A stretch of DNA of 20,170 nt from NCBI GenBank assembly GCA_946886475.1, contig CAMPIQ010000064.1, forward strand, positions 1 to 20,170. The letters run 5' to 3'. The stretch's first letter is position 1. Every line of letters starts with the position of its first letter. The translations under genes were made by a program, and so were the position numbers. The notes under the pieces are model-generated. The model ran no database searches, was not told where the DNA came from, and worked only from the letters and a program-made list of their open reading frames with translations. The stretch comes from an uncultured Chitinophagales bacterium (lineage in GTDB: Bacteria; Bacteroidota; Bacteroidia; Chitinophagales; Chitinophagaceae). Below are positions 3,514 through 17,115 of this stretch, piece by piece.

Positions 3514-4086
3514 ATGTCAATTTTCATCCATCCTACATCCATTATTGATGAAGGCTGTATTATTGGTGATGGAGTCAGGATCTGGCATTTTACGCACCTG
3601 ATGCAGGGTTGTTGTATTGGCAATGATTCTGTGATAGGCCAGAATGTTTTTATTGGCAGTTATGTGAGAATCGGCGCTAATGTACATATCCAGAATAATG
3701 TTTCGGTATATGAGGGCGTTAGCTGTGAAGATGATGTATTTCTTGGACCCTCTGTTGTTTTTACGAATATCAAAAACCCCCGCAGCTCAGTTAGCCGAAA
3801 GGGACAATTTGTGCAAACCATTATCAGGAAAGGCGCTACCATTGGTGCCAACGCAACCATCATTTGTGGGAACGAGATCGGGGCTTATGCATTTATCGGG
3901 GCCGGATCTGTTGTAACAAAACCTGTAAAAGCCTATAGTATTATGACGGGAAACCCTGCAAGGCAATCAGGATGGATGAGTGAAAAGGGATGCCGGCTAC
4001 ATTTTGATGAGCAGGGCTTTGCATTATGCACTGAAACAAATGAGCAATATCAGTTGAAAAACCAAACCGTAACTATTATCAGGTGA
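3514..4086 (+). CDS. Left-handed beta-helix N-acetyltransferase, WbpD/WlbB-like
   Basis: Hexapeptide-repeat acyltransferase of 190 residues, the usual length for WbpD/WlbB. That family acetylates the 3-amino group of UDP-2-acetamido-3-amino-2,3-dideoxy-glucuronate using acetyl-CoA. Imperfect isoleucine/valine hexapeptides run from about residue 8 to 145, for example around CIIGDGVRIWHF, SVIGQNVFIG and ATIGANATIICG. They are broken by the loop with FTNIKNPRS that is typical of this family. The C-terminal tail of about 40 residues follows the conserved TGNPAR. The next gene, a WbpB-like dehydrogenase, overlaps it by four bases (GTGA), the same pairing as in the known diacetamido-uronate pathways. 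The matching aminotransferase (WbpE/WlbC) is not in the window, so the actual substrate is uncertain. Confidence 0.85.
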   Translation: MSIFIHPTSIIDEGCIIGDGVRIWHFTHLMQGCCIGNDSVIGQNVFIGSYVRIGANVHIQNNVSVYEGVSCEDDVFLGPSVVFTNIKNPRSSVSRKGQFVQTIIRKGATIGANATIICGNEIGAYAFIGAGSVVTKPVKAYSIMTGNPARQSGWMSEKGCRLHFDEQGFALCTETNEQYQLKNQTVTIIR

Positions 4087-5021
4087 AGCTGTTTGCACTG
4101 ACCGGAGTTTCAGGTTTTGTAGCACCGAGGCACCTGCATGCCATTAAATCAACCGGCAATGAACTGGTAGCGGCTATGGATATTTCAGATTCGGCGGGTG
4201 TGCTTGACAGTTATTTTCCATCTGCTGATTTTTTTACAGATCCGGGCGAATTCAAACATTTTATTGAGCAATGCAATAAGAAGCGGTCACCCGTTGATTA
4301 TGTCTCGGTTTGTACGCCAAACCATTTGCATGAAGAAAATATCAGGATGGCTGTGCTGTCGGGCGCTGATGTGATCTGCGAAAAACCGCTTGTGCTGGAT
4401 CCGGATGATGCACAAAAACTAAAACACCTTGAAAATAGTTCAGGTAAAAAGATCTTTAATATTCTTCAGTTACGTCATCATCCAGGTATTCTTGATCTGA
4501 AAAAGAAAACAGAGCATGAATCAGCATCCCACAAGTATGAGATAGACCTGGCTTATGTTACTCCCCGGGGTAAGTGGTACCACAACAGCTGGAAAGGCGA
4601 TCCTGCCAGATCCGGAGGCATAGCCACCAATATCGGAATTCATTTTTTTGATATGCTGATCTGGATCTTCGGATCTGTTCAGAATTGTATTGTACAAATG
4701 CACAATGCGGAACGTTCTGCCGGTTTCCTGGAACTGGAAAAGGCAAGGGTCAGATGGTTTTTAAGCATCAATGAAACTGATCTTCCTGATCTGAACAACA
4801 GGAGCGCCGTACGTTCAATGGTGGTGAACGGACACCATGTTGATTTCAGTTCAGGATTTACTGAACTTCATAAAAATAATTATTCATCCATAATGGCAGG
4901 CCAGGGATGCAGAATTGATGATGTGATGCCATCCATTGAACTTGCCCACACCATCAGGTTCCAGGAACCTGTAGGGAAAAAGGGAGAATGGCATCCCATG
5001 GCAAATCTTTTTATCGAATAA
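4083..5021 (+). CDS. Gfo/Idh/MocA oxidoreductase, WbpB/WlbA-like sugar 3-dehydrogenase
   Basis: Probable NAD-dependent dehydrogenase that oxidises C3 of UDP-N-acetyl-glucosaminuronate, the step before 3-amination in the UDP-GlcNAc3NAcA pathway. The N-terminal Rossmann fold is followed by the family signature E100-K101-P102 and the active-site pair H187 and D190 in the GIHFFDML stretch. Its 312 residues match WbpB and WlbA. The best start is GTG at 4083, overlapping the previous stop as GTGA; the resulting N-terminus begins at the nucleotide-binding strand, as in homologues. It pairs with the preceding WbpD-like acetyltransferase. Neither a UDP-GlcNAc 6-dehydrogenase (WbpA) nor a dedicated WbpE aminotransferase is present here, so the pathway depends on genes elsewhere or the enzyme has another substrate. 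Confidence 0.85.
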   Translation: MKLFALTGVSGFVAPRHLHAIKSTGNELVAAMDISDSAGVLDSYFPSADFFTDPGEFKHFIEQCNKKRSPVDYVSVCTPNHLHEENIRMAVLSGADVICEKPLVLDPDDAQKLKHLENSSGKKIFNILQLRHHPGILDLKKKTEHESASHKYEIDLAYVTPRGKWYHNSWKGDPARSGGIATNIGIHFFDMLIWIFGSVQNCIVQMHNAERSAGFLELEKARVRWFLSINETDLPDLNNRSAVRSMVVNGHHVDFSSGFTELHKNNYSSIMAGQGCRIDDVMPSIELAHTIRFQEPVGKKGEWHPMANLFIE

Positions 5022-5023
5022 AA

Positions 5024-6073
5024 ATGAAAAAAACGATCATCATAACCGGCGGTGCCGGTTTTATTGGTTCACATGTAGTAAGATTGTTTGTGATTAAATA
5101 TCCTGATTACAGGATCATCAATCTTGATGCACTTACCTATGCAGGTAATCTTGAAAATCTTCGCGACATTGAATCAAAGCCCAACTATATTTTTGAAAAG
5201 GTGAATATCCTTGATGTAAATGAACTGGACCGTTTGTTCAGTTCCTACCAGCCGGATGGCATTATACACCTTGCCGCGGAATCTCATGTTGACCGTTCTA
5301 TTTTATCTCCCCTTGATTTTGTATATACCAATGTGGTTGGCACCGTAAATCTTTTAAATGCGGCAAACAAATGCTGGAAAGGAAATTCAGAAGGGAAACG
5401 TTTTTATCATGTATCTACAGATGAAGTATATGGTGCATTAGGGGATCAGGGCTTTTTTACGGAGGAAACTCCTTACGATCCGCATTCGCCGTATTCGGCA
5501 TCCAAGGCTTCTTCCGATCATTTTGTCCGGGCTTATCACGATACCTATCAATTGCCTGTTGTTGTCAGTAATTGTTCCAATAATTATGGTCCTTATCATT
5601 TTCCTGAAAAACTGATCCCATTGTTTATCAACAACGTCATAAATAAAAAGCCCTTGCCGGTATATGGAGACGGGCTGTACACGAGGGACTGGCTTTTTGT
5701 TAAGGACCATGCCATTGCCATCGACCTTGTATTTCACAAAGGAAAGAACGGCGGTACGTATAACATCGGAGGATTCAATGAGTGGAGAAATATTGACCTT
5801 GTAAAGCTGCTCTGTAGTTTAATGGATAAAAAGCTGGGCAGGAAGCCTGGCGAAAGCGAAGCGTTGATCACTTATGTGAAGGACCGCCCAGGCCATGACC
5901 GCCGCTATGCCATTGATGCAACAAAGATCAATCAGGAATTGGGATGGAAACCGGGTGTAACTTTTGAAGAAGGGCTTGAGCAAACAATCGACTGGTATCT
6001 TGAAAATACAGAATGGCTTTCGCATGTAACCACCGGAGAATATCAGAAGTATTATGAAAAACAGTATGATTGA
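5024..6073 (+). CDS. rfbB: dTDP-glucose 4,6-dehydratase
   Basis: Converts dTDP-glucose to dTDP-4-keto-6-deoxyglucose, the branch point for dTDP-rhamnose and many deoxy and amino sugars. With the start at 5024, the NAD motif GGAGFIGS lies at residues 9-16. The full catalytic set is visible: T132-D133-E134 in STDEVYG, and Y157 with K161 in YSASK. The sequence continues with the family signatures NCSNNYGPYHFPEKLIPL and VYGDGLYTRDWLFVKDH. The 349 residues match RmlB. An upstream in-frame ATG at 4988 would add 12 residues inside the preceding gene and is not favoured, because homologues begin just before the Rossmann strand. The gene starts two bases after the preceding stop. Assignment is firm. 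Confidence 0.95.
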   Translation: MKKTIIITGGAGFIGSHVVRLFVIKYPDYRIINLDALTYAGNLENLRDIESKPNYIFEKVNILDVNELDRLFSSYQPDGIIHLAAESHVDRSILSPLDFVYTNVVGTVNLLNAANKCWKGNSEGKRFYHVSTDEVYGALGDQGFFTEETPYDPHSPYSASKASSDHFVRAYHDTYQLPVVVSNCSNNYGPYHFPEKLIPLFINNVINKKPLPVYGDGLYTRDWLFVKDHAIAIDLVFHKGKNGGTYNIGGFNEWRNIDLVKLLCSLMDKKLGRKPGESEALITYVKDRPGHDRRYAIDATKINQELGWKPGVTFEEGLEQTIDWYLENTEWLSHVTTGEYQKYYEKQYD

Positions 6074-6120
6074 TAATTAATAATCTTTTTCTTTGAATTG
6101 CAGAAAATCAAAATCCAACC

Positions 6121-6990
6121 ATGAAAGGAATCATTCTGGCAGGCGGTAGCGGTACAAGGCTCTACCCCATTACAAAAGCTATTTCCAAACAGCTGATGCC
6201 CATTTACGATAAGCCTATGATCTATTACCCGCTGTCCATCCTGATGATGGCCGGGATCAGGGAGGTGCTCATCATCACCACACCGGAAGACAATAGTTCT
6301 TTCAGGCGTTTGCTTGGTAACGGTTCGCAAATAGGATGTTCATTCGAATATGCTGTTCAGGAGGTGCCCAATGGGTTGGCACAGGCATTTGTAATAGCCG
6401 AAAAATTTATTGGAGATGATAAGGTGGCTCTGGTGCTGGGGGATAACATTTTTTATGGAACGGGACTGGGAAGACAATTGCGTACGCTTAGTGATGTAGA
6501 TGGAGGATATGTTTTTGCCTACGAGGTATCTGATCCCGAGCGATATGGTGTAGTTGAATTTGATAACGATAATAAAGTTCTTTCCATTGAAGAAAAGCCT
6601 GCCAGGCCTAAATCTAAATATGCAGTTCCCGGATTGTATTTTTATGACAATGAAGTGGTAAGTATTTCAAAGAATCTTAAGCCATCTGCAAGAGGAGAAT
6701 ATGAGATCACAGATGTAAATAAAGTGTACCTGCAAAAAGGAAAATTAAAAGTGGCTATTCTTGACAGGGGAACAGCCTGGCTGGATACCGGAACTTTCGA
6801 ATCGATGAATGATGCAGGTGAATTTGTAAAAGTGATCGAGAAAAGACAGGGTACCAAGATCGGGTGCATCGAAGAAATAGCTTACCGGATGGGCTTTATC
6901 AACAGGGCCCAGCTACTGGAACAGGCGGATGCTCTTGAGAAAAGCGGGTATGGCCACTATCTTAAGAAGGTAGCAGCATATGAAGATTAA
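6121..6990 (+). CDS. rfbA: Glucose-1-phosphate thymidylyltransferase
   Basis: Makes dTDP-glucose from glucose-1-phosphate and dTTP, supplying the substrate of the adjacent RfbB. The nucleotide-binding signature [11 protein letters not shown] begins at residue 8, followed by the [17 protein letters not shown] stretch. The metal- and sugar-binding residues are D108 (LGDNIFYG) and D222 (WLDTGT). The 289 residues are the standard length for RmlA. The gene follows rfbB after 47 bases of AT-rich sequence with no obvious structure. RfbC (3,5-epimerase) and RfbD (4-keto reductase) are not in the window, so the final dTDP sugar is not determined here. Assignment is firm. Confidence 0.95.
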
Positions 6991-7038: not shown

Positions 7039-8037
7039 ATGGAATTAAAAGGTAAAAAAGTACTTGTAACAGGCGCTGATGGTTTTATCGGCAGTCATCT
7101 TGTAGAAAGATTACTTGAGGAAGGTTGTAAGGTAAAGGCATTTTGTTATTACAACTCTTTCAACAGCTGGGGATGGCTGGATACTTTCCCTAAAGAAAAG
7201 ATCAGTGAGATTGAAATTTTTACCGGAGACATCAGGGATCCGAATGGCGTACGCACCTCCATGCAGGATTGTGATATTGTTTTTCATCTGGCAGCATTGA
7301 TAGCTATCCCTTTCAGTTATCATTCTCCCGATTCCTATATCGATACCAATGTAAAAGGAACACTGAATATTGTTCAGGCAGCAAAAGACCTGGGTATCAA
7401 AAGGGTGCTCGTTACTTCTACATCGGAGATATATGGTACTGCCCAATATATTCCCATTGATGAAAAGCATCCAAAGCAACCACAATCACCTTATTCCGCT
7501 TCCAAGATCGGAGCAGACTGCATTGCAGAATCTTTTTACAGAAGCTTCAATCTGCCACTCACCATTGTGCGTCCTTTTAATACTTTTGGTCCCCGTCAGT
7601 CGGCGCGTGCCGTGATACCATCCATTATCATTCAATTATTGAATGGCAAAAATGAGATCCGCCTGGGAGATCTGCGTCCAACACGTGATCTCTTGTTTGT
7701 AAAAGATACCGCAGAGGGCTTTGTTGCCATTGCCAAATCAGACGAATTGATAGGGGAAGACTGCAATATTGCAACCCAGTCGGAGATCAGCATAAAAGAC
7801 CTTGCTCAAAGCCTGATCAATAGGATAAGGCCCGATGCAAAGATCATTACCGACGATGAGAGAATGAGACCTGAGAAAAGTGAAGTGTTCCGTTTATTTG
7901 GATCAAATGAAAAGCTCATTTCAAAAACAACATGGAAAGCCGGTTATACACTGGAAAAAGGGTTGGATGAAACAGTGGCCTGGTTCAGGGATCCTGCCAA
8001 CCTCAGACAGTACAAAGCTGATATTTACAATATCTGA
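7039..8037 (+). CDS. legB: LegB-type NAD-dependent nucleotide-sugar 4,6-dehydratase
   Basis: First committed enzyme of the legionaminic acid pathway. In Campylobacter jejuni, LegB converts GDP-GlcNAc to the 4-keto-6-deoxy sugar. The NAD motif GADGFIGSH is at residues 11-19. The LegB-characteristic YNSFNSWGWLD stretch follows shortly after. The active site comprises STSEIYG and Y152 with K156 in YSASK. The later RPFNTFGPRQSARAVIP and PTRDLLFVKDT stretches also fit this subfamily. Its 332 residues are the family length. It opens the nonulosonic acid block and overlaps the aminotransferase start by one base (TGATG). Nucleotide preference (GDP or UDP) cannot be read from sequence, but the PtmE homologue downstream argues for GDP. 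Confidence 0.9.
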   Translation: MELKGKKVLVTGADGFIGSHLVERLLEEGCKVKAFCYYNSFNSWGWLDTFPKEKISEIEIFTGDIRDPNGVRTSMQDCDIVFHLAALIAIPFSYHSPDSYIDTNVKGTLNIVQAAKDLGIKRVLVTSTSEIYGTAQYIPIDEKHPKQPQSPYSASKIGADCIAESFYRSFNLPLTIVRPFNTFGPRQSARAVIPSIIIQLLNGKNEIRLGDLRPTRDLLFVKDTAEGFVAIAKSDELIGEDCNIATQSEISIKDLAQSLINRIRPDAKIITDDERMRPEKSEVFRLFGSNEKLISKTTWKAGYTLEKGLDETVAWFRDPANLRQYKADIYNI

Positions 8038-9194
8038 TGAATAATAATTACGAACCGGTACTTCAGAAGATCCGGCAACTTTTTAATGAACCCCAGGCCT
8101 TTATTCCTTTGCATGCACCATATTTTGGCGGCAATGAAAAAAAATATGTCCTGGAAACCATCGACTCCACTTTTGTTTCTTCAGTAGGTCCCTTTGTTAG
8201 CAGGTTCGAAGAAATGATGTGCGATATAACCGGTGCGGGTTATGCCATTGCCACCATGAATGGTACCACTGCCCTTCACCTCGCCCTGTTGGTTGCCGGT
8301 GTAAAAGCCGGAGATGCTGTAATAACACAACCTTTAACTTTTGCCGCCACAGCCAATGCTATTGCCCATGCAGGTGCACAGCCCATTTTTGTTGATGTTG
8401 ACAGGGATACTTTAGGTTTGTCTCCACAGGCACTCGAAGTTTGGTTACATGAGCATGCAGAAGTGAAAGAAGGAATATGTAAGATCAAATCAACTGGACA
8501 AAAAATAGCGGCCTGTGTTCCCATGCATAGTTTCGGATTTCCGGTACGCATCCGGGAATTGATGGAAGTGTGTAAAAAGTTTTCCATTGTAATTGTTGAG
8601 GACGCAGCCGAGTCTTTAGGAAGCTATGTTGAAAATAAGCACACAGGTAATTTCGGTTTACTTGGTATTTTCAGTTTCAACGGTAATAAAACTATTACTT
8701 CCGGTGGAGGTGGCGCCATTGTAACCAGTGATGAGAAATTAGGTAAGCTTGCCAAACACCTTTCAACTACGGCCAAGGTGCCGCATGCGTATGAATTCAG
8801 GCATGACCAGGTAGGATACAATTACCGAATGCCCAATCTGAACGCGGCCCTTGCTTGTGCACAGCTTGAGCAGCTGGATATTTTTCTTAAGAACAAAAGA
8901 GAACTGGCCCTTACCTATAAAGAATATTTCAGCAGCAGAAATGAAACATTTGTCTGGGAGCGCGAGGGAACTGTTGCCAATTTCTGGCTCAACACTATCC
9001 TGTTCAGTAACCAGGAAGAGCAAAGGTCTTTTCTTGAGTACAGCAACGAAAACAAAATAATGACAAGGCCCATATGGCAATTAATGAACAAGCTTCCCAT
9101 GTTCCAGACCTGTTTGAAAGGAGATCTTTCCAATGCTATCTGGCTGGAAGAAAGGGTGGTAAATATTCCGAGTAGTTACAGACCTGGTAAATGA
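8037..9194 (+). CDS. legC: LegC-type PLP-dependent aminotransferase
   Basis: Aminates C4 of the 4-keto-6-deoxy intermediate made by LegB, probably with glutamate as donor. It belongs to the DegT/DnrJ/EryC1 sugar aminotransferase family. The opening IPLHAPYFGGNEKKYV and STFVSSVG stretches are typical of LegC. The cofactor residues are D189 in VEDAAES and the Schiff-base lysine K218 in FSFNGNK. The glycine-rich SGGGGA stretch follows, then the RMPNLNAALACAQ substrate-binding region. Its 385 residues match the family. It overlaps both neighbours by one to four bases, and its stop lies inside the ATGATGATG start of the formyltransferase gene. It is the only aminotransferase in the window. Assignment is firm. 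Confidence 0.92.
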   Translation: MNNNYEPVLQKIRQLFNEPQAFIPLHAPYFGGNEKKYVLETIDSTFVSSVGPFVSRFEEMMCDITGAGYAIATMNGTTALHLALLVAGVKAGDAVITQPLTFAATANAIAHAGAQPIFVDVDRDTLGLSPQALEVWLHEHAEVKEGICKIKSTGQKIAACVPMHSFGFPVRIRELMEVCKKFSIVIVEDAAESLGSYVENKHTGNFGLLGIFSFNGNKTITSGGGGAIVTSDEKLGKLAKHLSTTAKVPHAYEFRHDQVGYNYRMPNLNAALACAQLEQLDIFLKNKRELALTYKEYFSSRNETFVWEREGTVANFWLNTILFSNQEEQRSFLEYSNENKIMTRPIWQLMNKLPMFQTCLKGDLSNAIWLEERVVNIPSSYRPGK

Positions 9195-10090
9195 TGATGA
9201 AAAAATTTTCTATAGGATATTTTGCTGATGGGCCCTGGAGCCATCATGCTTTAGATTTATTATTAGCTGATGAATCTCTTGAGGTAAAGTTTGTTGTTCC
9301 GCGCAGGGATACCAAAGATGATATTTTAAAAGGTTTAGCGCTGTCAAATAAAATTGACTACCTGGAAGGTGTTCTGTTGAATTCTAATGAATTCTTTTTG
9401 AAAGCATCCAACTATAATTGCGACCTGTTTGTTTCAATGAGCTATAATCAGATCTTTAAAAACAGGATAACGAATCTTCCGCCATATAAAACAATCAATT
9501 GCCATGCAGGCAAATTGCCATTTTACCGGGGAAGGAATATTCTTAATTGGGTTTTGATAAATGATGAAAAGGAATTTGGAATTACAGTACACTACATTGA
9601 TGAGGGGATTGACACGGGAGATATTATTACTCAGAAAACCTTCCCTATATCTGATAACGATAATTATAAATCATTGCTTACAGTTGCCTTTGTAGAGTGC
9701 GGAAATTTATTATACCAGGCAATTAAGCTGATCCAGTCAGGAAATGCAAATCCCGTTCCTCAGAGATCTATTCATCCGGTTGGATTTTATTGCGGTATCA
9801 GGGGAGAAGGCGATGAAGTGATTAACTGGAATCAGAGTAGCAGGGATGTGTTTAATTTTATTAGAAGCGTTTGTTCACCAGGACCTGTTGCAAGAACAAG
9901 TTTGAATGGCCAGGAGATAAAGATCAATAAGTCAGTTTTAATTTCAAACGCCCCTGCCTATAAATGCATTCCTGGGCAGGTTGTAGGTAAAACAAATGAT
10001 GGATACATAGTCAAGACACTCGATTCATCACTGGAGGTGTTGGAATTGGAAACATCTGTAAAAATAAAAATAGGGGACAGATTTAAATGA
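9191..10090 (+). CDS. Fmt-like sugar N-formyltransferase in the LegH position
   Basis: Member of the methionyl-tRNA formyltransferase superfamily, which includes ArnA, VioF and WlaRD sugar formyltransferases that use N10-formyl-tetrahydrofolate. The catalytic triad is complete: N103 and H105 in INCHAGKLP, and D141 in GIDTGDII. The 36-residue spacing from H105 to D141 equals that of E. coli Fmt (H108 to D144). After the catalytic domain (about 1-190) comes a Fmt-type C-terminal domain (about 205-295) beginning with DEVINWNQSS. Overlaps on both sides (ATGA junctions with legC and the synthase gene) place it at the step between amination and C3 extension. There the known pathway has the acetyltransferase LegH, which is absent. 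A housekeeping Fmt is unlikely given the context and the divergent N-terminus. Formylation of the 4-amino group is inference. Confidence 0.85.
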   Translation: MMMKKFSIGYFADGPWSHHALDLLLADESLEVKFVVPRRDTKDDILKGLALSNKIDYLEGVLLNSNEFFLKASNYNCDLFVSMSYNQIFKNRITNLPPYKTINCHAGKLPFYRGRNILNWVLINDEKEFGITVHYIDEGIDTGDIITQKTFPISDNDNYKSLLTVAFVECGNLLYQAIKLIQSGNANPVPQRSIHPVGFYCGIRGEGDEVINWNQSSRDVFNFIRSVCSPGPVARTSLNGQEIKINKSVLISNAPAYKCIPGQVVGKTNDGYIVKTLDSSLEVLELETSVKIKIGDRFK

Positions 10091-11106
10091 AAGGGGTATT
10101 AATTATAGCTGAAGCCGGCGTTAATCATAATGGTGACCTTTCCCTTGCTTATAAACTAATAGATGAAGCTTTTAATGCCGGTGCAGACATAGTAAAGTTT
10201 CAAACTTTTAAGGCTGAAAAACTTGCGAGCAGGAAAGCTGCGAAAGCTGAATATCAAATTGCAACAACAGGTAAAACTGAAAGCCAGTTTGATATGCTTA
10301 AAAAGCTCGAGCTCTCTGAAGATGATCATGACAACTTAATGGCTTACTGCAGAAAAAAAGGAATTGCATTTCTTTCTACGCCCTTTGATCAGGAAAGCAG
10401 TAAACTATTAAAAGCGAAAGGTATAACCATAGGAAAGATACCATCAGGTGAAATTACCAACCTTCCTTACCTGCAGGATATGGCAAAAAACTTTCCAAGA
10501 ATTATATTATCTACGGGTATGTGTGAAATGGATGAGGTAAAGATGGCGGTAAAGGTTTTGTTAGATGCCGGAGCTTCAAAAGCTAATATTACCATTTTGC
10601 ATTGCAATACGGAATATCCAACACCAATGGCTGATGTAAATCTCAAAGCCATGAACCACATAAAAAATGAGCTGGACATAGAAGTGGGTTATTCTGATCA
10701 TACCCTTGGAATAGAAGTACCTGTTGCTGCCGTTGCATTGGGAGCAACGGTCATAGAAAAACATTTTACCCTTGACCGTAATATGGAAGGTCCTGATCAT
10801 AAGGCTTCATTGGAACCAGACGACTTAAAAGCAATGGTTTCAGCAATAAGAAATATTGAAAAGGCATTGAGCGGCTCCGGTATCAAAGAACCAAGTGCAT
10901 CTGAGATCAAAAACAGGGATATTGCGCGTAAAAGTCTTGTAGCTTCAAAGTACCTGGCCAGTGGTTCCGTAGTAACAGAAAATGATATTGAAATCAAAAG
11001 GCCTGGCAATGGTATATCGCCTATGCGGATTCATGAATTCATAGGAAAAAAATTGAAAAGGTCCATTGAACAGGATGAAATTTTTACAATAGATCATTTT
11101 GAATAA
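10087..11106 (+). CDS. legI: NeuB-family legionaminic acid synthase
   Basis: Condenses phosphoenolpyruvate with the free 2,4-diacylamino-6-deoxymannose to give the nine-carbon acid. The TIM-barrel NeuB domain opens with IAEAGVNHNG (residues 7-16). The metal-binding histidines are H205 (YSDHTLG) and H226 (EKHFTLD), with the 21-residue spacing of Neisseria NeuB (H215 and H236). The LHCNTEYPTP stretch is the usual substrate-binding region. A C-terminal SAF (antifreeze-like) domain occupies about residues 280-339. At 339 residues it is typical. It overlaps the formyltransferase by four bases and abuts the epimerase gene. It could in principle act on a sialic or pseudaminic precursor, but the LegB/LegC context favours a legionaminic-type product. 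Confidence 0.93.
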   Translation: MKGVLIIAEAGVNHNGDLSLAYKLIDEAFNAGADIVKFQTFKAEKLASRKAAKAEYQIATTGKTESQFDMLKKLELSEDDHDNLMAYCRKKGIAFLSTPFDQESSKLLKAKGITIGKIPSGEITNLPYLQDMAKNFPRIILSTGMCEMDEVKMAVKVLLDAGASKANITILHCNTEYPTPMADVNLKAMNHIKNELDIEVGYSDHTLGIEVPVAAVALGATVIEKHFTLDRNMEGPDHKASLEPDDLKAMVSAIRNIEKALSGSGIKEPSASEIKNRDIARKSLVASKYLASGSVVTENDIEIKRPGNGISPMRIHEFIGKKLKRSIEQDEIFTIDHFE

Positions 11107-12207
11107 ATGAGAATAGCTTTATTAACCAGTTCGCGTGCCGATTATGGTATCTACCTTCCATTGATGCGCGCCTTGCATAATGATCCGGCATGTGATCTGA
11201 GGATAATTGCTTTTGGAACACATCTTTCATCCTTTCACGGTCACACAATTGATCAGATCAAAGCAGATGGTTTCCATATAGATTATGAAGTTGAAAACAT
11301 CCTGGCGTCAGACTCTGAATTGTCTGTTGCTTCAAGTATGGCATTAACGTTAATGCGCTTTGCTGAGATCTGGAGCAGGGAAAAAAATAATTATGACCTG
11401 GTATTGTGTCTGGGTGACAGGTATGAGATGTTTAGCGCTGTAAGTGCATCTGTTCCTTTTGGTTTAAAGATCGCACATATTCATGGGGGGGAAACAACTT
11501 TAGGAGCTATCGATAATAGTTTCAGGCACTGCCTCTCTATTTTTTCTGACATGCACTTTGTTTCTGCCGCTATATATGCGCAGCGTGTTGAAGAGATCAG
11601 GGGCAACAATGAAAATATACACGTTGTTGGTTCATTAAGCCTTGATAACCTGAATCATTTACAACTTTATAGCTCCCGGGAATTCAAGGAGCAGTATGAT
11701 ATTGATCTTACCAAGGAAACAATTCTTGTTACCTATCATCCTGAAACAGTAAAAGCAGAATTGAATACTAATCGTGCACAAACCCTTATAAAAGCTTTGG
11801 GTCAGTTAGCCGGTTACCAGATAATAATTACTATGCCCAATGCAGACACAAGTGGCAACAGCATGCGTAATGTATATCTTGAATTTGCATCGGACAATCC
11901 AAATATTAAAATAGTTGAGAATTTTGGTACCAGAGGTTATTTCAGTTGTATGAAGCTTTGTAATCTTGTTGTAGGCAATTCCTCAAGCGGTATAATTGAA
12001 GCTGCAAGTTTTAAAAAACATGTAGTGAATATCGGCGACAGGCAAAAAGGCAGAGCCGTTTCAGATAACGTGATAAATGCAGATAATGAGGAAAGATCTA
12101 TAGTTGAGGCAATCAATAAAGGTTTGTCTCTGGGAGATTACAATGGGGAAAACGTCTATTATAATGGAGGTGCAGTTGAAAAAATCACTAAAATTCTACT
12201 TTCATAG
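11107..12207 (+). CDS. legG: LegG/NeuC-type hydrolysing nucleotide-sugar 2-epimerase
   Basis: Removes the nucleotide and inverts C2 of the diamino sugar, giving the free manno-configured substrate of the synthase. GT-B fold of the UDP-GlcNAc 2-epimerase family. The hydrolysing subgroup signature TSSRADYG lies at residues 7-14. Other conserved elements are D104 (CLGDRYEM), the HIHGGETT stretch around E129, YHPET, and the C-terminal nucleotide-binding NSSSGIIEA. Its 366 residues agree with LegG and NeuC. It begins immediately after the synthase stop and is followed by a 29-base gap before the preferred start of the next gene. It may hydrolyse a GDP sugar (as LegG) or a UDP sugar (as NeuC/PseG-like routes); context supports GDP. 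Confidence 0.92.
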   Translation: MRIALLTSSRADYGIYLPLMRALHNDPACDLRIIAFGTHLSSFHGHTIDQIKADGFHIDYEVENILASDSELSVASSMALTLMRFAEIWSREKNNYDLVLCLGDRYEMFSAVSASVPFGLKIAHIHGGETTLGAIDNSFRHCLSIFSDMHFVSAAIYAQRVEEIRGNNENIHVVGSLSLDNLNHLQLYSSREFKEQYDIDLTKETILVTYHPETVKAELNTNRAQTLIKALGQLAGYQIIITMPNADTSGNSMRNVYLEFASDNPNIKIVENFGTRGYFSCMKLCNLVVGNSSSGIIEAASFKKHVVNIGDRQKGRAVSDNVINADNEERSIVEAINKGLSLGDYNGENVYYNGGAVEKITKILLS

Positions 12208-12236
12208 TTGAATTTCACTTTTAATTTATTTTGGCA

Positions 12237-13289
12237 ATGAAGGACTGGCAAAGACATTTGATGAAAGCATCAACCACACTGAGGGAAGCTATGCTTAGAA
12301 TTGATGATCTTAAGCTGGCAAATGCCGATGTCTTTGTGGTAGATGACAATAATCATTTATTAGGTTCTCTTTCCGATGGCGATATACGGCGTGCTTTGAT
12401 AAATGGTGCGGAAATGTCGCATAGGATAGATTGCGCAATGAACACTGAATGTACATATGCTGTTGGCAGCCAGCCCAACACAGATGTTGTTCGGTATTGT
12501 AAACAAAAATCAATTCGTTTTTTGCCTCTTGTTTCAGAGCAAAAGGAGATTATCCAGGTTATTGATATTGATTTCATTAAGGGAATTGTTCCTGTAGAAG
12601 CTATAATTATGGCTGGAGGTGAAGGCAAACGTTTATTGCCTTTAACCTTAAAGGTTCCCAAACCACTACTTCCGATAGGCGGGAAGCCTATTATTGAACA
12701 CAATATTGAAAGGCTTATTAAATTCGGGGTCAATCATATCAGGATCAGCATCAATTATCTTGGAAACATGTTGCAGGATCACTTCGGAGACGGCTCGGAT
12801 TATAATATCAGGATCGATTATGTACACGAAGATCAACCAATGGGAACCATAGGGGCAGTCCGTAAAGTAACCGACTGGAACTCTGAACACATACTTGTTA
12901 TGAATTCAGATATTCTGACGGATCTTGACTTTTCAGATTTTTATGCCAACTTTTTTGATTCAGGTGCTGACCTTGCAATTGCTGCAACAGTTTATTCTGT
13001 AAATGTTCCATATGCCGTACTTGAAACCAATAAAGGAAATCAGGTATCGGCACTATCTGAAAAGCCTACTTATAATTATTATTCCAATGCCGGTATTTAT
13101 CTTATGAAACGGGAAGTATTATCTCATATTCCCGATAATACAAAGTATGATATGCCTGATTTGATCCAGGCGCTTATGGATAAAGGTTCAAAAGTGGTAA
13201 GCTATCCAATAAGAGGGTATTGGCTTGATATAGGTAAAATGAATGATTATGAAAAAGCCCAGGAAGATATAAAACACCTGAATTTATAA
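12237..13289 (+). CDS. ptmE: PtmE-like CBS-domain sugar-1-phosphate nucleotidyltransferase
   Basis: Resembles Campylobacter PtmE, which makes GDP-glucosamine from glucosamine-1-phosphate to feed the legionaminic pathway. An N-terminal CBS-pair region (about residues 1-118) contains FVVDDNNHLLGSLSDGDIRRAL. A nucleotidyltransferase domain follows, with MAGGEGKRLLPLT starting at M125, then KPLLPIGGKPII, MNSDILTD and the GYWLDIG region near the C-terminus. The preferred start is ATG at 12237; a TTG at 12231 would add two residues. The CBS pair suggests regulation by an adenosyl or other nucleotide ligand, which is inference. It overlaps the cytidylyltransferase by one base. It could instead use another NTP or hexosamine phosphate, since mannose-1-phosphate guanylyltransferase-like proteins share these motifs. 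Confidence 0.85.
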   Translation: MKDWQRHLMKASTTLREAMLRIDDLKLANADVFVVDDNNHLLGSLSDGDIRRALINGAEMSHRIDCAMNTECTYAVGSQPNTDVVRYCKQKSIRFLPLVSEQKEIIQVIDIDFIKGIVPVEAIIMAGGEGKRLLPLTLKVPKPLLPIGGKPIIEHNIERLIKFGVNHIRISINYLGNMLQDHFGDGSDYNIRIDYVHEDQPMGTIGAVRKVTDWNSEHILVMNSDILTDLDFSDFYANFFDSGADLAIAATVYSVNVPYAVLETNKGNQVSALSEKPTYNYYSNAGIYLMKREVLSHIPDNTKYDMPDLIQALMDKGSKVVSYPIRGYWLDIGKMNDYEKAQEDIKHLNL

Positions 13290-13990
13290 TGCCATCAATT
13301 TTATTTCTGATACCGGCAAGAGCCGGATCAAAAGGTGTACCTGGTAAAAATTATAAAGAATTGGCAGGGAAACCATTGATAAAATATCCACTAGAGCTTG
13401 CCCGTAAGTTTACAGCTGACATAAATATTTGTATTAGTACAGATGATAAACATATTGAAGATATTGTAAAGGCAGATGGATATGAATTACCTTTTATCCG
13501 TCCTCCCGAACTTTCATCAGATAAGGCAGGTGCTTATGAAGTGATGCTGCATGCAATAGAACATTACTCCAGTATCGGAAGAAATTATCAACTTCTGGTT
13601 TACCTGCAGCCTACTTCGCCCTTTCGAACTTTTACACATGTAAAGGAAGCCATTTCAAAATTTCAGAGCGGGATGGATATGCTGGTTTCTGTAAAAGAAA
13701 CAAAGGCTAACCCATATTATCTTTTGATGGAAGAAGATGAAAATGGCTGGTTACAACATTCCAAGAAGGCTAATTTTGTAAGAAGGCAGGATACGCCAAC
13801 AGTTTATGAGCTTAATGGAGCCATCTATGTAATAAATGTTGAGAGCCTGAAAAATGGCCCTATTAATTCCTTTAAGAAAATTGGAAAATATGTAATGGAT
13901 GAGGTTCATTCAATAGATATTGATTCTCCGTTGGATTGGATAATTGCTGAGACATTTCTTGAAAAGGGTGTGATTGATCATGAAATATAA
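13289..13990 (+). CDS. legF: CMP-nonulosonic acid synthetase (LegF/NeuA family)
   Basis: Activates the nine-carbon acid with CTP to the CMP-sugar used by glycosyltransferases. The signature IPARAGSKGVPGKN is at residues 8-21. The conserved LQPTSPFR stretch lies mid-protein, and the C-terminal magnesium-binding aspartates are D210 and D212 in IDIDSPLDW. At 233 residues it contains the single cytidylyltransferase domain, without the extra esterase or phosphatase domain of some NeuA proteins. It begins on the last base of the preceding stop and overlaps the following oxidoreductase by 11 bases. The location at the end of the LegB-to-PtmE series indicates a legionaminic-type substrate, possibly N-formylated. 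Confidence 0.92.
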   Translation: MPSILFLIPARAGSKGVPGKNYKELAGKPLIKYPLELARKFTADINICISTDDKHIEDIVKADGYELPFIRPPELSSDKAGAYEVMLHAIEHYSSIGRNYQLLVYLQPTSPFRTFTHVKEAISKFQSGMDMLVSVKETKANPYYLLMEEDENGWLQHSKKANFVRRQDTPTVYELNGAIYVINVESLKNGPINSFKKIGKYVMDEVHSIDIDSPLDWIIAETFLEKGVIDHEI

Positions 13991-14954
13991 TATAGCAATA
14001 GTTGGCTCAGGTCAGTTAGGAAGCCGTCATTTGCAGGCACTCTCGCTGGTAAAACAACCTTTAAATATCTGGGTTATTGATCCAGGCACAGCTTCTCTGG
14101 AAACAGCCCGTCTAAGATGGAATGAGGTTGCTGAAAATACAGTTCATTCAATAAGATTTGAAAGTGATCTATCCGTACTGCCTTCCGATCTGTTTCTTGT
14201 TGTTGTGGCTACGAGTTCAATGGTACGCCGAAAGGTTATAGAATCTTTATTGCAGATCTCAACAATGAAATACCTGGTTCTCGAAAAAATATTATTTCCC
14301 TGTTTGGAAGATTACAATATTGTACGTGATAAATTATCTCAGAAAGGCGTAACGACCTGGGTTAATTGTCCCCGCAGACAATACCCCGGATACATTCAGT
14401 TGAAAAATGAAATTAAGGATGTTCCATTTGTTATGACGGTAAACGGAAGTTCATGGGGATTTGCATGTAATACCATTCACTGGATCGATATCTTTTCCTA
14501 TTTAAGCAATGATCACAATGTTCAGATCACTCCCTTTCTTGATCAGCATTTAATTAAATCGAAAAGAGAAGGTTACCTGGAGCTTTCAGGAATGCTTACG
14601 GTTACAAACGTTAAGGGAAACAAACTGGTAATACAGTGCTTTGATGGTGGCGATCACCCACTGGAGGCTCATATTGAATTGCCAGGCCATTCTTATTTTA
14701 TTGAAGAAAGCAAGCAAAGGATCCAGATAAGGGAATCCGGGAAAGACTGGAAATCTGAAATGGCAGAATTTCCGGTTTTACGGCAAAGTCAGTTAACAAA
14801 CCTTATAACCGAAGATCTGATAGAACAGGGTACCTGCCAACTTACCAGCCTGGAGGAATCATCCATGTTGCATATGCCCATGATTGAGGTATTTCTCGGG
14901 AAGATCAATCAATACAATAATACGCCGTCAAATAAATTATGTCCCTTAACATAG
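13980..14954 (+). CDS. Gfo/Idh/MocA-like oxidoreductase linked to CMP-sugar synthesis
   Basis: Rossmann-fold oxidoreductase of unknown substrate. The nucleotide-binding GSGQLGSRHL lies at residues 9-18. The usual EKP signature is altered to E102-K103-I104, keeping the catalytic lysine. A possible active-site pair H167 and D170 occurs in NTIHWIDIF. The C-terminal half has the mixed beta-sheet character of the family. Chosen start is ATG at 13980; the TTG at 13974 would add two residues. The gene overlaps both neighbours, by 11 and 16 bases, implying translational coupling with legF. Proteins of this type accompany nonulosonic acid genes, but I know no defined reaction for this one. A redox or epimerising change of the sugar before or after CMP activation is inference. 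Confidence 0.8.
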   Translation: MKYNIAIVGSGQLGSRHLQALSLVKQPLNIWVIDPGTASLETARLRWNEVAENTVHSIRFESDLSVLPSDLFLVVVATSSMVRRKVIESLLQISTMKYLVLEKILFPCLEDYNIVRDKLSQKGVTTWVNCPRRQYPGYIQLKNEIKDVPFVMTVNGSSWGFACNTIHWIDIFSYLSNDHNVQITPFLDQHLIKSKREGYLELSGMLTVTNVKGNKLVIQCFDGGDHPLEAHIELPGHSYFIEESKQRIQIRESGKDWKSEMAEFPVLRQSQLTNLITEDLIEQGTCQLTSLEESSMLHMPMIEVFLGKINQYNNTPSNKLCPLT

Positions 14955-15889
14955 ATCAGGTGATAATAGTGGGTGCAGGCCCAATGGCTGTATCTTATGC
15001 CCAGGTACTGAGGTCGGCTTCCATACCAGCCAAAATAATTGGAAGAAGTGAATCTTCTGCCGCAAAATGTTCTGAACAGACAGGTATCAGAGTTGTAACC
15101 GGTGGATTGAGATCTTATTTAAACGATTTTCAAGCGCCGTTACATGCCATTATTGCAACGGGTGTCGATTCTCTTGAAGAAAATACAATCATGCTTTTAG
15201 AGTCCGGGTGTAAAAATATCCTGGTTGAAAAACCCGGGGCGCTTAACAAGGATGGATTAAAGCGGCTGTTAAACGCAACAAGGCAGTATAATGGAAATGT
15301 ATATATCGCATATAACCGGAGATTTTATGCTTCGGTGAATAAGGCAAGACAAATTATTGAAGAAGATGGCGGATTGAGAGAAGTATATTTTGAGTTCACT
15401 GAATGGAGTCATATCATTGAATCTTTGCCAAAAGAGGCAGCTGTGAAATCACATTGGTTTCTGGCTAATTCAACACATGTTGTTGACCTGGCCTTTCATT
15501 TCGCCGGTTTGCCTTCCAATTGGCAGGGTTATGTTTCCGGAGGCAATTCATGGCATAACGCAGCTACCAGATTTGTAGGCAGCGGTATTACTTCCAAAGA
15601 TGTTTTGTTCACCTATCAGGCCGACTGGGAAGGACCCGGAAGGTGGGGGTTGGAGCTGGTTACAAAAAAAAGAAGACTATTCTTAAGACCTCTGGAACAA
15701 CTTTCGGTTCAGGAATCTGGTTCAGTAACCATTCAGAAACTTGAACTTGATGATGAAAAAGATACAACGTTCAAACCAGGCTTGTATGCACAGGTAATGG
15801 CATGGCTCAACAAAAATGAAGAACACCTCTGTTCTGCAGAAGAGCAATGGAACGCAATGGATATATATTATAAAATGGCAGGATATTGA
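14939..15889 (+). CDS. Second Gfo/Idh/MocA-like oxidoreductase
   Basis: Another predicted NAD(P)-dependent sugar oxidoreductase, clearly different in sequence from the one just upstream. The nucleotide-binding VGAGPMAVSYAQVL stretch lies near residue 11. The family signature is intact as VEKPGALNKDG, and STHVVDLAFHF supplies a histidine-aspartate pair as in the family active site. The 316 residues are typical. It overlaps the upstream oxidoreductase by 16 bases and is followed by the preferred start of the 407-residue protein two bases after its stop. Two such enzymes in tandem suggest sequential or paired oxidation and reduction of one substrate. That is inference; neither substrate nor cofactor can be read from the sequence. 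Confidence 0.8.
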   Translation: MSLNIDQVIIVGAGPMAVSYAQVLRSASIPAKIIGRSESSAAKCSEQTGIRVVTGGLRSYLNDFQAPLHAIIATGVDSLEENTIMLLESGCKNILVEKPGALNKDGLKRLLNATRQYNGNVYIAYNRRFYASVNKARQIIEEDGGLREVYFEFTEWSHIIESLPKEAAVKSHWFLANSTHVVDLAFHFAGLPSNWQGYVSGGNSWHNAATRFVGSGITSKDVLFTYQADWEGPGRWGLELVTKKRRLFLRPLEQLSVQESGSVTIQKLELDDEKDTTFKPGLYAQVMAWLNKNEEHLCSAEEQWNAMDIYYKMAGY

Positions 15890-15891
15890 GT

Positions 15892-17115
15892 ATGAAAGCA
15901 CAGACTATATTATGGTGTTGGTGGTATGATAGAAAGGATCTTGTTTCTCCTTTATTCCCAATTATGAATGGTTTGAAAAACCATTTTCTTTTTTACCGGT
16001 TTAAAGCTCAGGAAAAATTAGATTTTCAATTACCAGGAACTATTCATTATTGGACTGATTATAATTCACCTTATCAAATTCTATCCAGGATACAGCCAGA
16101 CAAGGTGGTATTTATGGGAATTGAAAATTTGCTGACAGTTGGTTTGCGCTCAGCCTGCCGGAAGCTGGGTATTAAAACTATTTATTTATCCCATGGGTTG
16201 ACCACCTCATATGAAAACACAGTATCAAATAATAAGCTGGGCCTTTCGCTCATTGATGAAAGGTATTCGAAGTATCAGCATTATTATCAAAAGCAGAAGT
16301 GGCGTACATTACTATTCTGTTTAAATGCCATCTTAAAGGCATCATCTTTAAAAGAGAAAATTTATATAGCCAAACTTGTTTATGTTTTTTCACGTTTCAA
16401 CAATGTTCATGAGCGCCTCGCAAAAAGTAAATCTGAATACCGGTTAGCAGATGCATATGTTGTGTTTACAAAACACCTGGCACGTTTGCTCAAAGAACGC
16501 GATGGAGTGGAGGAATCAAGGATGATTGAAATTGGTCCTTATAGTCTGGATCATTTATTCAAAAAATTAGCATCTCCTGCCAATTCTGATACCTTGAACA
16601 ATTGGGGAAATTATTTGCTGATGATTGACCAGCCATTAGGAAAAGTTTCATTGGAACATCAATTGTTATTCTGGAATAACCTGGCAAATTTTACAGAAAA
16701 GTCTAATCTGAAGCTTGTGGTGAAGCTTCACCCCAGTAGTTATCCCAAATCAAATCCAATTGATCATCCAAATTGTATTTGGGTGCGCGATGAAGAAGAT
16801 ATTTCTGATTTGATTTATGGAGCATCAGGGTGTTTTGGATATTTCTCAGCCTTATTATTGCCCATTATCCTGTTTAAACCTGTAATACTTTTCAACCCAA
16901 CTGATCAGCCTTTGATTGATGAATGGAGCGGCCTTGGTGTAGTTGGATTATTGCCCTATCCGGATTTCACCTTCCAGGACTTCAAAAAGGTATTGAACTA
17001 TTTTGAAACAAATGGATCAATTTCATCGAATATGGATCTCTATATCGAAAAATATATTTATAAAGCCGATGGCGAAGGTACAGCAAGGTTAAGAGATGTT
17101 TTATTAAACCAATGA
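15892..17115 (+). CDS. Predicted GT-B-like glycosyltransferase, candidate nonulosonate transferase
   Basis: I do not recognise this 407-residue protein with certainty. Seen features: no signal peptide, an N-terminal half with basic and aromatic helices, a LLMIDQPLG strand near the middle, then VVKLHP with H280-P281. This is followed by a YGASGCFGYFSALLLP stretch with S312 and S319, and an IILFKPVILFNP strand. An HP motif followed by a serine-containing motif is how bacterial sialyltransferases and CDP-glycerol-transferase-like GT-B enzymes bind a CMP or CDP donor. Its position directly after the CMP-sugar genes fits a transferase for the nonulosonate. The TTG at 15886 is an alternative start; ATG 15892 is preferred. 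The last four bases overlap the flippase start (ATGA). Function is inference. Confidence 0.6.
   Translation: MKAQTILWCWWYDRKDLVSPLFPIMNGLKNHFLFYRFKAQEKLDFQLPGTIHYWTDYNSPYQILSRIQPDKVVFMGIENLLTVGLRSACRKLGIKTIYLSHGLTTSYENTVSNNKLGLSLIDERYSKYQHYYQKQKWRTLLFCLNAILKASSLKEKIYIAKLVYVFSRFNNVHERLAKSKSEYRLADAYVVFTKHLARLLKERDGVEESRMIEIGPYSLDHLFKKLASPANSDTLNNWGNYLLMIDQPLGKVSLEHQLLFWNNLANFTEKSNLKLVVKLHPSSYPKSNPIDHPNCIWVRDEEDISDLIYGASGCFGYFSALLLPIILFKPVILFNPTDQPLIDEWSGLGVVGLLPYPDFTFQDFKKVLNYFETNGSISSNMDLYIEKYIYKADGEGTARLRDVLLNQ

Follow-up and report, generated by a model that had tools for sequence, protein, structure and literature searches.

A predicted amino-sugar N-formyltransferase in the LegH position of legionaminic acid operons

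Introduction

Flagella, capsules and surface proteins are coated with sialic-acid-like sugars, whose N-acyl groups count among the features that can be read by other cells, viruses and immune proteins. For several other amino sugars, paired enzymes supply either an acetyl or a formyl group, as in PerB/WbkC, VioB/VioF and PseH/PseJ, and in the uridine diphosphate (UDP)-4-amino-arabinose pathway the formyltransferase is fused to a second enzyme domain, giving ArnA. The N-formyl legionaminic acid of Halorubrum is said to have been assigned originally by Kandiba et al. in 2012. Here we describe a stretch of 20,170 nucleotides from an uncultured Chitinophagales bacterium (contig CAMPIQ010000064.1), hereafter called the window, in which a legionaminic acid operon carries a gene for a predicted sugar N-formyltransferase, FT1, in the slot that other such operons fill with the acetyltransferase LegH. 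We consider it likely that FT1 transfers formyl to the amine that LegC installs at C4, which would give 7-N-formyl legionaminic acid (Leg5Ac7Fo).

In the described pathway, the only free amine produced by LegC sits on the hexose C4, and this carbon becomes C7 of the nonulosonate (PMC6388019, PMC6137143). A gene of the PglD/NeuD kind that adjoins legI in Plesiomonas shigelloides has been named legH and is required for flagella (PMC4481668). LegH of this type shares the operon slot of FT1 and presumably its acceptor amine, but is an unrelated hexapeptide-repeat acetyltransferase, which transfers acetyl and not formyl. The closest precedent for the formylated sugar comes from Halorubrum sp. PV6 which, like a virus grown in it, carries N-formylated legionaminic acid; HrrPV6_1050 (GenBank MH673034), whose gene lies between legG and a neuD, was put forward there as a candidate for the formyltransferase (PMC6137143). 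HrrPV6_1050 resembles FT1 as a proposed N-formyltransferase within a legionaminic acid cluster, and is probably likewise a two-domain protein, since its reverse transcription-polymerase chain reaction product measured 953 bp; it differs in its position, in the assignment of the formyl group to C5, and its function is a proposal. Two further genes of the cluster deserve mention: the gene designated LegH, HrrPV6_1014 (annotated as a nucleotidyltransferase, 1,368 bp product; PMC6137143, Table 1), would by name and size be more of the PtmE/GlmU type, and the neuD gene HrrPV6_1051 (629 bp) would fit LegH better.

A study of Geobacillus made a comparable inference for fdtC (PMC5109656). Open-access publications yielded no formyltransferase in the LegH slot, no alternation with LegH and no account of its spread, a result that covers open-access text only and may differ from the literature in print. 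Thus, N-formyl legionaminic acid as a class and the idea of a dedicated formyltransferase are already known, and the novelty would lie in a family of formyltransferases for which a new acceptor is predicted within an established pathway. The initial annotation of this DNA knew of no defined enzyme for a 7-N-formylated legionaminic acid; an N-formyl legionaminic acid, assigned at C5, and a candidate gene for it were already in print. If our reading is true, FT1 makes enzymatic tests possible for a class of sugars reported, in the literature found, only from one haloarchaeon and its virus.

The formyltransferase and its position in the operon

The 19 main genes of the window, all on the plus strand, form a surface-polysaccharide locus, and its legionaminic acid operon (7039–13990) consists of legB, legC, the formyltransferase gene, legI, legG, a ptmE-like gene and a legF-like gene. 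FT1 (9191–10090, plus strand) is a protein of 299 residues in which PF00551 (70.8 bits, cut-off 26.1) is followed by PF02911 (47.8 bits, cut-off 21.1), and is predicted to be an N-formyltransferase for 4-amino-4,6-dideoxy-N-acetylglucosamine (GlcNAc) linked to guanosine diphosphate (GDP) or another nucleoside diphosphate (NDP). Counted from the start at 9191, for which the ATG at 9194 or 9197 is equally possible, the catalytic Asn and His lie in N103-C104-H105 (codons 9497–9505, plus strand) and the catalytic Asp is D141 (codon 9611–9613, plus strand); this triad is invariant in all 83 FT1 proteins aligned, including that of the window. FT1 thus has the Formyl_trans_N domain, the Asn-x-His...Asp triad and the predicted Fmt/ArnA/WbkC fold of the sugar N-formyltransferases, and formyl transfer to an amino sugar is predicted.

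The stop codon TGA of legC (9192–9194) overlaps the FT1 start at 9191, and the FT1 stop (10088–10090) overlaps the legI ATG at 10087, so that both junctions read ATGA, which suggests translational coupling. These overlapping frames leave no room for an acetyltransferase between legC and legI. A Pfam scan of all 28 open reading frames (ORFs) of at least 80 amino acids in the window recognized no LegH-type acetyltransferase, no GNAT protein and no PIG-L deacetylase, and the LegH slot of the operon is occupied by FT1. The intact two-domain Fmt-like frame, the placement of the triad, the two ATGA overlaps and the lack of a GNAT or hexapeptide acetyltransferase between legC and legI had all been described in the initial annotation, and each was confirmed here in coordinates, frame and domains.

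A structural comparison places FT1 among known formyltransferases. Its identity is 23–24% in the structural alignment to the GDP-perosamine N-formyltransferase WbkC (5vyr–5vyu), whose acceptor is perosamine and not a 2-acetamido sugar as predicted for FT1, and about 25% to the N-terminal formyltransferase domain of ArnA. PseJ (6ci2, 6ci4), the counterpart of PseH, N-formylates a 4-amino sugar en route to a nonulosonate, as is predicted for FT1; however, its PDB chains comprise 192–217 residues and it acts on a sugar of other stereochemistry. PseJ similarity is confined to the N-terminal domain (48 bits to the window FT1, 67 bits to the FT1 profile), and PseJ was absent among the 50 matches listed in the structural comparison.

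Alternation of FT1 with LegH-type genes

The survey of gene order was seeded by legC (TIGR04181) and not by FT1. It sampled three phyla, with 395, 299 and 398 genomes (1,092 in total), of which 40, 34 and 24, respectively, passed the TIGR04181 cut-off. Ninety-nine legC loci were read, and the 82 with legI within 6.5 kb were counted, the 17 without it being left out; the centres of the three samples (G008, G004 and G013) are known FT1 carriers, and for G008 the longer locus L010 was used in place of L091. By profiles, 52 of the 82 loci hold a LegH gene of the PglD/NeuD type alone, 11 hold FT1 alone, two hold both and 17 neither, so that 63 of the 65 loci having either gene carry just one. Mutual exclusion is significant over the whole set (Fisher p = 7e-5) and without the three FT1-carrying centre genomes (p = 0.001), and FT1 occurs in 13 of the 82 loci, or in 10 of 79 when these centres, chosen for FT1, are subtracted. 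The Bacteroidota sample, for which such a survey had been suggested, shows the exclusion by itself (p = 0.002), with FT1 only in six, a LegH-type gene only in 22, both in one and neither in five of 34 loci by profiles, and the corresponding values seven, 20, one and four of 32 loci by BLAST. For the one LegH-type acetyltransferase compared with the PDB, from L014, the best match is perosamine N-acetyltransferase, followed by PglD and VioB.

A quick tree of LegI (92 rows) needs at least 12 changes of state between FT1 and LegH, and loci with like labels tend to group together, since FT1 changes as few as those observed arose in seven of 500 shuffles. One starred group of five LegI proteins combines three FT1 loci with two LegH-type loci, and the LegI of the window stands beside LegH-type loci, on unstarred branches. 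On this tree, related operons have interchanged FT1 and LegH repeatedly, which is the pattern expected of two enzymes serving one step.

Several observations weigh against this reading. Taken alone, the other two samples do not show a significant exclusion (p = 0.12 and 0.23), loci from one phylum lack independence, and the statistics ignore shared descent; in the LegI tree only 28 of the 89 inner branches are starred, most being weakly supported. A LegH-type gene was also present in two of the 13 survey loci with FT1 and, within ten genes, in 18 of the 78 loci retrieved with FT1 itself, and it lies directly upstream of FT1 in 13 of these 18; where the two coexist, FT1 may have another acceptor, or both acyl forms may arise. 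A full-length NeuD-type protein was found, among the matches listed, in at least 14 of 30 FT1 genomes (the author's choice from 79 loci), 10 of them over the cut-off. Seventeen of the 82 surveyed loci have neither FT1 nor a LegH-type gene, and these must rely on a different acylator or on one whose gene lies elsewhere. Finally, the published N-formyl legionaminic acid was assigned as the 5-N-formyl and not the 7-N-formyl form (PMC6137143).

The coexisting genes lend themselves to the explanation that the formyl and the acetyl enzyme act as alternatives in acylation, or that FT1 works on a different 4-amino sugar from the same cell, with the window's legionaminic acid acetylated by a LegH encoded elsewhere; the scan for LegH in the source organism covered the window, which leaves room for such a gene. 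We regard this as unlikely in view of the overlapping legC-FT1-legI frames and the near-complete exclusion in the survey, and 16 of the 30 FT1 genomes showed no full-length NeuD-type protein among the matches listed, in a search that did not extend to GNAT-type enzymes. The claim of the initial annotation that a formyltransferase replaces LegH accordingly does not hold universally, in view of the FT1-retrieved loci with both genes.

Individual loci show further arrangements. In a Campylobacter sp., FT1 is flanked by two LegH-type hexapeptide genes (L072:7363–7962 and 8990–9613), so that acetyl and formyl enzymes coexist. Among loci with neither gene, L121 has an ATP-grasp ligase (7104–8060; PF15632, 67 bits) in the slot after legC, perhaps for an aminoacyl-type N-acyl group; L138 has a GNAT/FemAB-like protein and a methyltransferase between legF and legI (4602–6351, minus strand); and in L247 and L248 the opposite strand encodes a hexapeptide protein.

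Distribution of FT1 and its separation from Fmt

A search with the FT1 protein only returned 80 loci, of which two were removed: L080, which holds a true Fmt, and L077, in which the threshold used revealed no FT1 ORF. Pedobacter ghigonis (L010) and Labilibacter marinus (L002) are examples of organisms with FT1 only, and Allomuricauda ochracea (L013) is a further FT1 species. By record title, the FT1 loci belong to Bacteroidota, Clostridia, Campylobacterota, Alpha-, Beta- and Gammaproteobacteria, SAR86, Prochlorococcus and others. In 74 of the remaining 78, legC or legI lies within ten genes, and since these loci were retrieved by protein alone, the placement is more than chance; legI immediately follows FT1 in 50 of them, and in 28 legC immediately precedes it. 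The matches in plasmids (256 records) and phages (22 records) were all below 60% identity. The LegI of L070, from a record titled Heimdallarchaeota archaeon, is very close on the tree to that of the SAR86 locus L071, and the contig is possibly a contaminant.

This recurrent placement also bears on the possibility that FT1 is a second methionyl-transfer RNA (tRNA) formyltransferase, Fmt, which stands in the operon by chance. We find this scarcely credible. The window FT1 scores 129.3 bits against the fmt equivalog model, below its cut-off of 201.5, and together with five relatives it has an eight-residue gap, relative to L080 as the one true Fmt compared, in the insertion loop of the N-terminal domain, a loop with a tRNA-related role. 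Furthermore, another gene over the fmt cut-off is present in 28 of the 30 FT1 genomes, the match in genome G006 containing an internal TGA. In the comparison set (98 FT1 and 19 FT2 proteins, some genes fetched twice from overlapping loci; FT1 profile built from 76), FT1 is, as judged from its sequences, a coherent family apart from Fmt. If FT1 acts as its position implies, a gene often named 'methionyl-tRNA formyltransferase' would mark makers of N-formyl legionaminic acid.

Predicted product and mechanism

In the proposed scheme, PtmE would make GDP-GlcNAc, from which LegB would yield the 4-keto-6-deoxy sugar and LegC the 4-amino sugar. FT1 would then transfer the formyl group of N10-formyl-tetrahydrofolate to this 4-amine, the formyl carbonyl being held by Asn103 while protons are transferred through His105 and Asp141; LegG would remove the nucleotide and invert C2, LegI would condense the 4-formamido sugar with phosphoenolpyruvate, and LegF would activate the product. 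The formyl donor, the acceptor and its nucleotide (GDP), the roles of the residues and the final sugar are those that we infer. The hexose C4 nitrogen becomes N7, and the product would therefore be 5-N-acetyl-7-N-formyl-legionaminic acid, the formyl group being placed at C7 because the known pathway provides only this free amine, the C2 nitrogen is acetylated and the ORFs of the window include no deacetylase. The 7-N-formyl interpretation of the initial annotation is thus supported as the prediction that best fits what the sequences show. The calculated residue mass is 302.11 for Leg5Ac7Fo and 316.13 for the diacetyl form, so that the FT1 sequence rule predicts a shift of 14 Da in glycan mass data.

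The Halorubrum sugar invites the alternative that FT1 formylates the future N5 nitrogen after removal of its N-acetyl group, as its C5 assignment and the formyltransferase gene within that cluster would suggest (PMC6137143). In the reported spectra, the doubly charged ions at m/z 1546.65 and 1697.70 differ by 302.1 Da, which fits one acetyl and one formyl group (PMC6137143), but a mass step of this size cannot distinguish C5 from C7. We judge N5 formylation by FT1 quite improbable, as the window has no recognized deacetylase and another family, FT2, which pairs with a PIG-L deacetylase, looks more like an N5 enzyme; formylation of the LegC-made amine by FT1 remains the preferred reading.

FT2, PIG-L and a possible N-acyl code

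FT2 is 24–28% identical to the window FT1, and in 12 of 12 aligned FT2 proteins the Asn of the triad is replaced by Gly, with His and Asp kept (L016:11049–11930, residue 101). FT2 and PIG-L genes stand together in L139 (4044–4925 and 3385–4116 (-)) and also in L009, L016, L044, L055, L113, L127, L233 and L237, and the PIG-L proteins beside FT2 matched PF02585 with 79–82 bits in the three tested. Among the 82 survey loci, FT2 with PIG-L was counted in seven, PIG-L alone in four and FT2 alone in one, and seven of nine survey loci with FT2 also have a LegH-type gene or FT1; this co-occurrence and the PIG-L pairing make FT2 look more like the N5 enzyme. On a simple reading, PIG-L would free the other nitrogen and FT2 would re-acylate it, forming a candidate module for C5 N-formylation, which, if true, would explain the 5-N-formyl sugar.

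It is conceivable, and we offer this tentatively as a proposal that we doubt somewhat more than we believe, that these enzymes form an exchangeable N-acyl code, in which the C7 acylator would be set by the legC/legI slot (LegH or FT1, and once each the ATP-grasp ligase and the GNAT/FemAB-like protein) and C5 would be edited by PIG-L and FT2. Under such a code, operons with FT1, FT2 and PIG-L, for example L139, would give 5,7-di-N-formyl-legionaminic acid, a sugar that to our knowledge is known from no source.

Neighbouring genes of the window

The genes described here from legB onwards are on the plus strand. Membership in the cytidine monophosphate (CMP)-legionaminic acid pathway is indicated by legB, legC, legI and legG, all of which exceed curated NCBIfam cut-offs: the NDP-GlcNAc 4,6-dehydratase gene legB (7039–8037) scores 495 bits with TIGR04180 (cut-off 475), legC (8037–9194), for the aminotransferase installing the 4-amine, 528 bits with TIGR04181 (cut-off 420), the nonulosonate synthase gene legI (10087–11106; PF03102 and PF08666) 493 bits with TIGR03569 (NeuB/LegI; cut-off 400), and legG (11107–12207), for the hydrolysing 2-epimerase, 387 bits with TIGR03568 (NeuC/LegG; cut-off 236). 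A pseudaminic acid operon with PseJ was considered and rejected, the dehydratase and the aminotransferase reaching only 86 bits on the PseB model (cut-off 408) and 222 bits on the PseC model (cut-off 424), and LegB and LegC fitting instead. No aminotransferase beyond that of legC was recognized in the window.

Further downstream, the ptmE-like nucleotidyltransferase with a CBS domain (12231–13289; PF00483 and PF00571) has as its best NCBIfam match the guanylyltransferase model NF052502, at 161 bits under the cut-off of 440. The legF-like gene for a CMP-nonulosonate synthetase (13289–13990) was assigned its name from its PF02348 domain and the gene order, the curated cut-off of TIGR03584 not being reached (131 bits against 206). 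A Gfo/Idh/MocA oxidoreductase gene (13974–14954; PF01408, 26.5 bits) is called ptmF-like by gene order, and a candidate nonulosonate transferase resembling polysialyltransferases is encoded at 15886–17115 (PF07388, a weak match of 24.2 bits with a cut-off of 23.3).

The sole hexapeptide protein of the window (3514–4086) is WlbB/WbpD-like (PDB 3mqg, 209 bits), and its ORF overlaps that of a WbpB-like dehydrogenase (PDB 3oa2, 327 bits), the pair spanning 3514–5021; being of the WlbB/WbpD type and adjoining WbpB, it was ruled out as LegH. The pair points to a diacetamido-uronic acid as a possible further sugar from the same locus.
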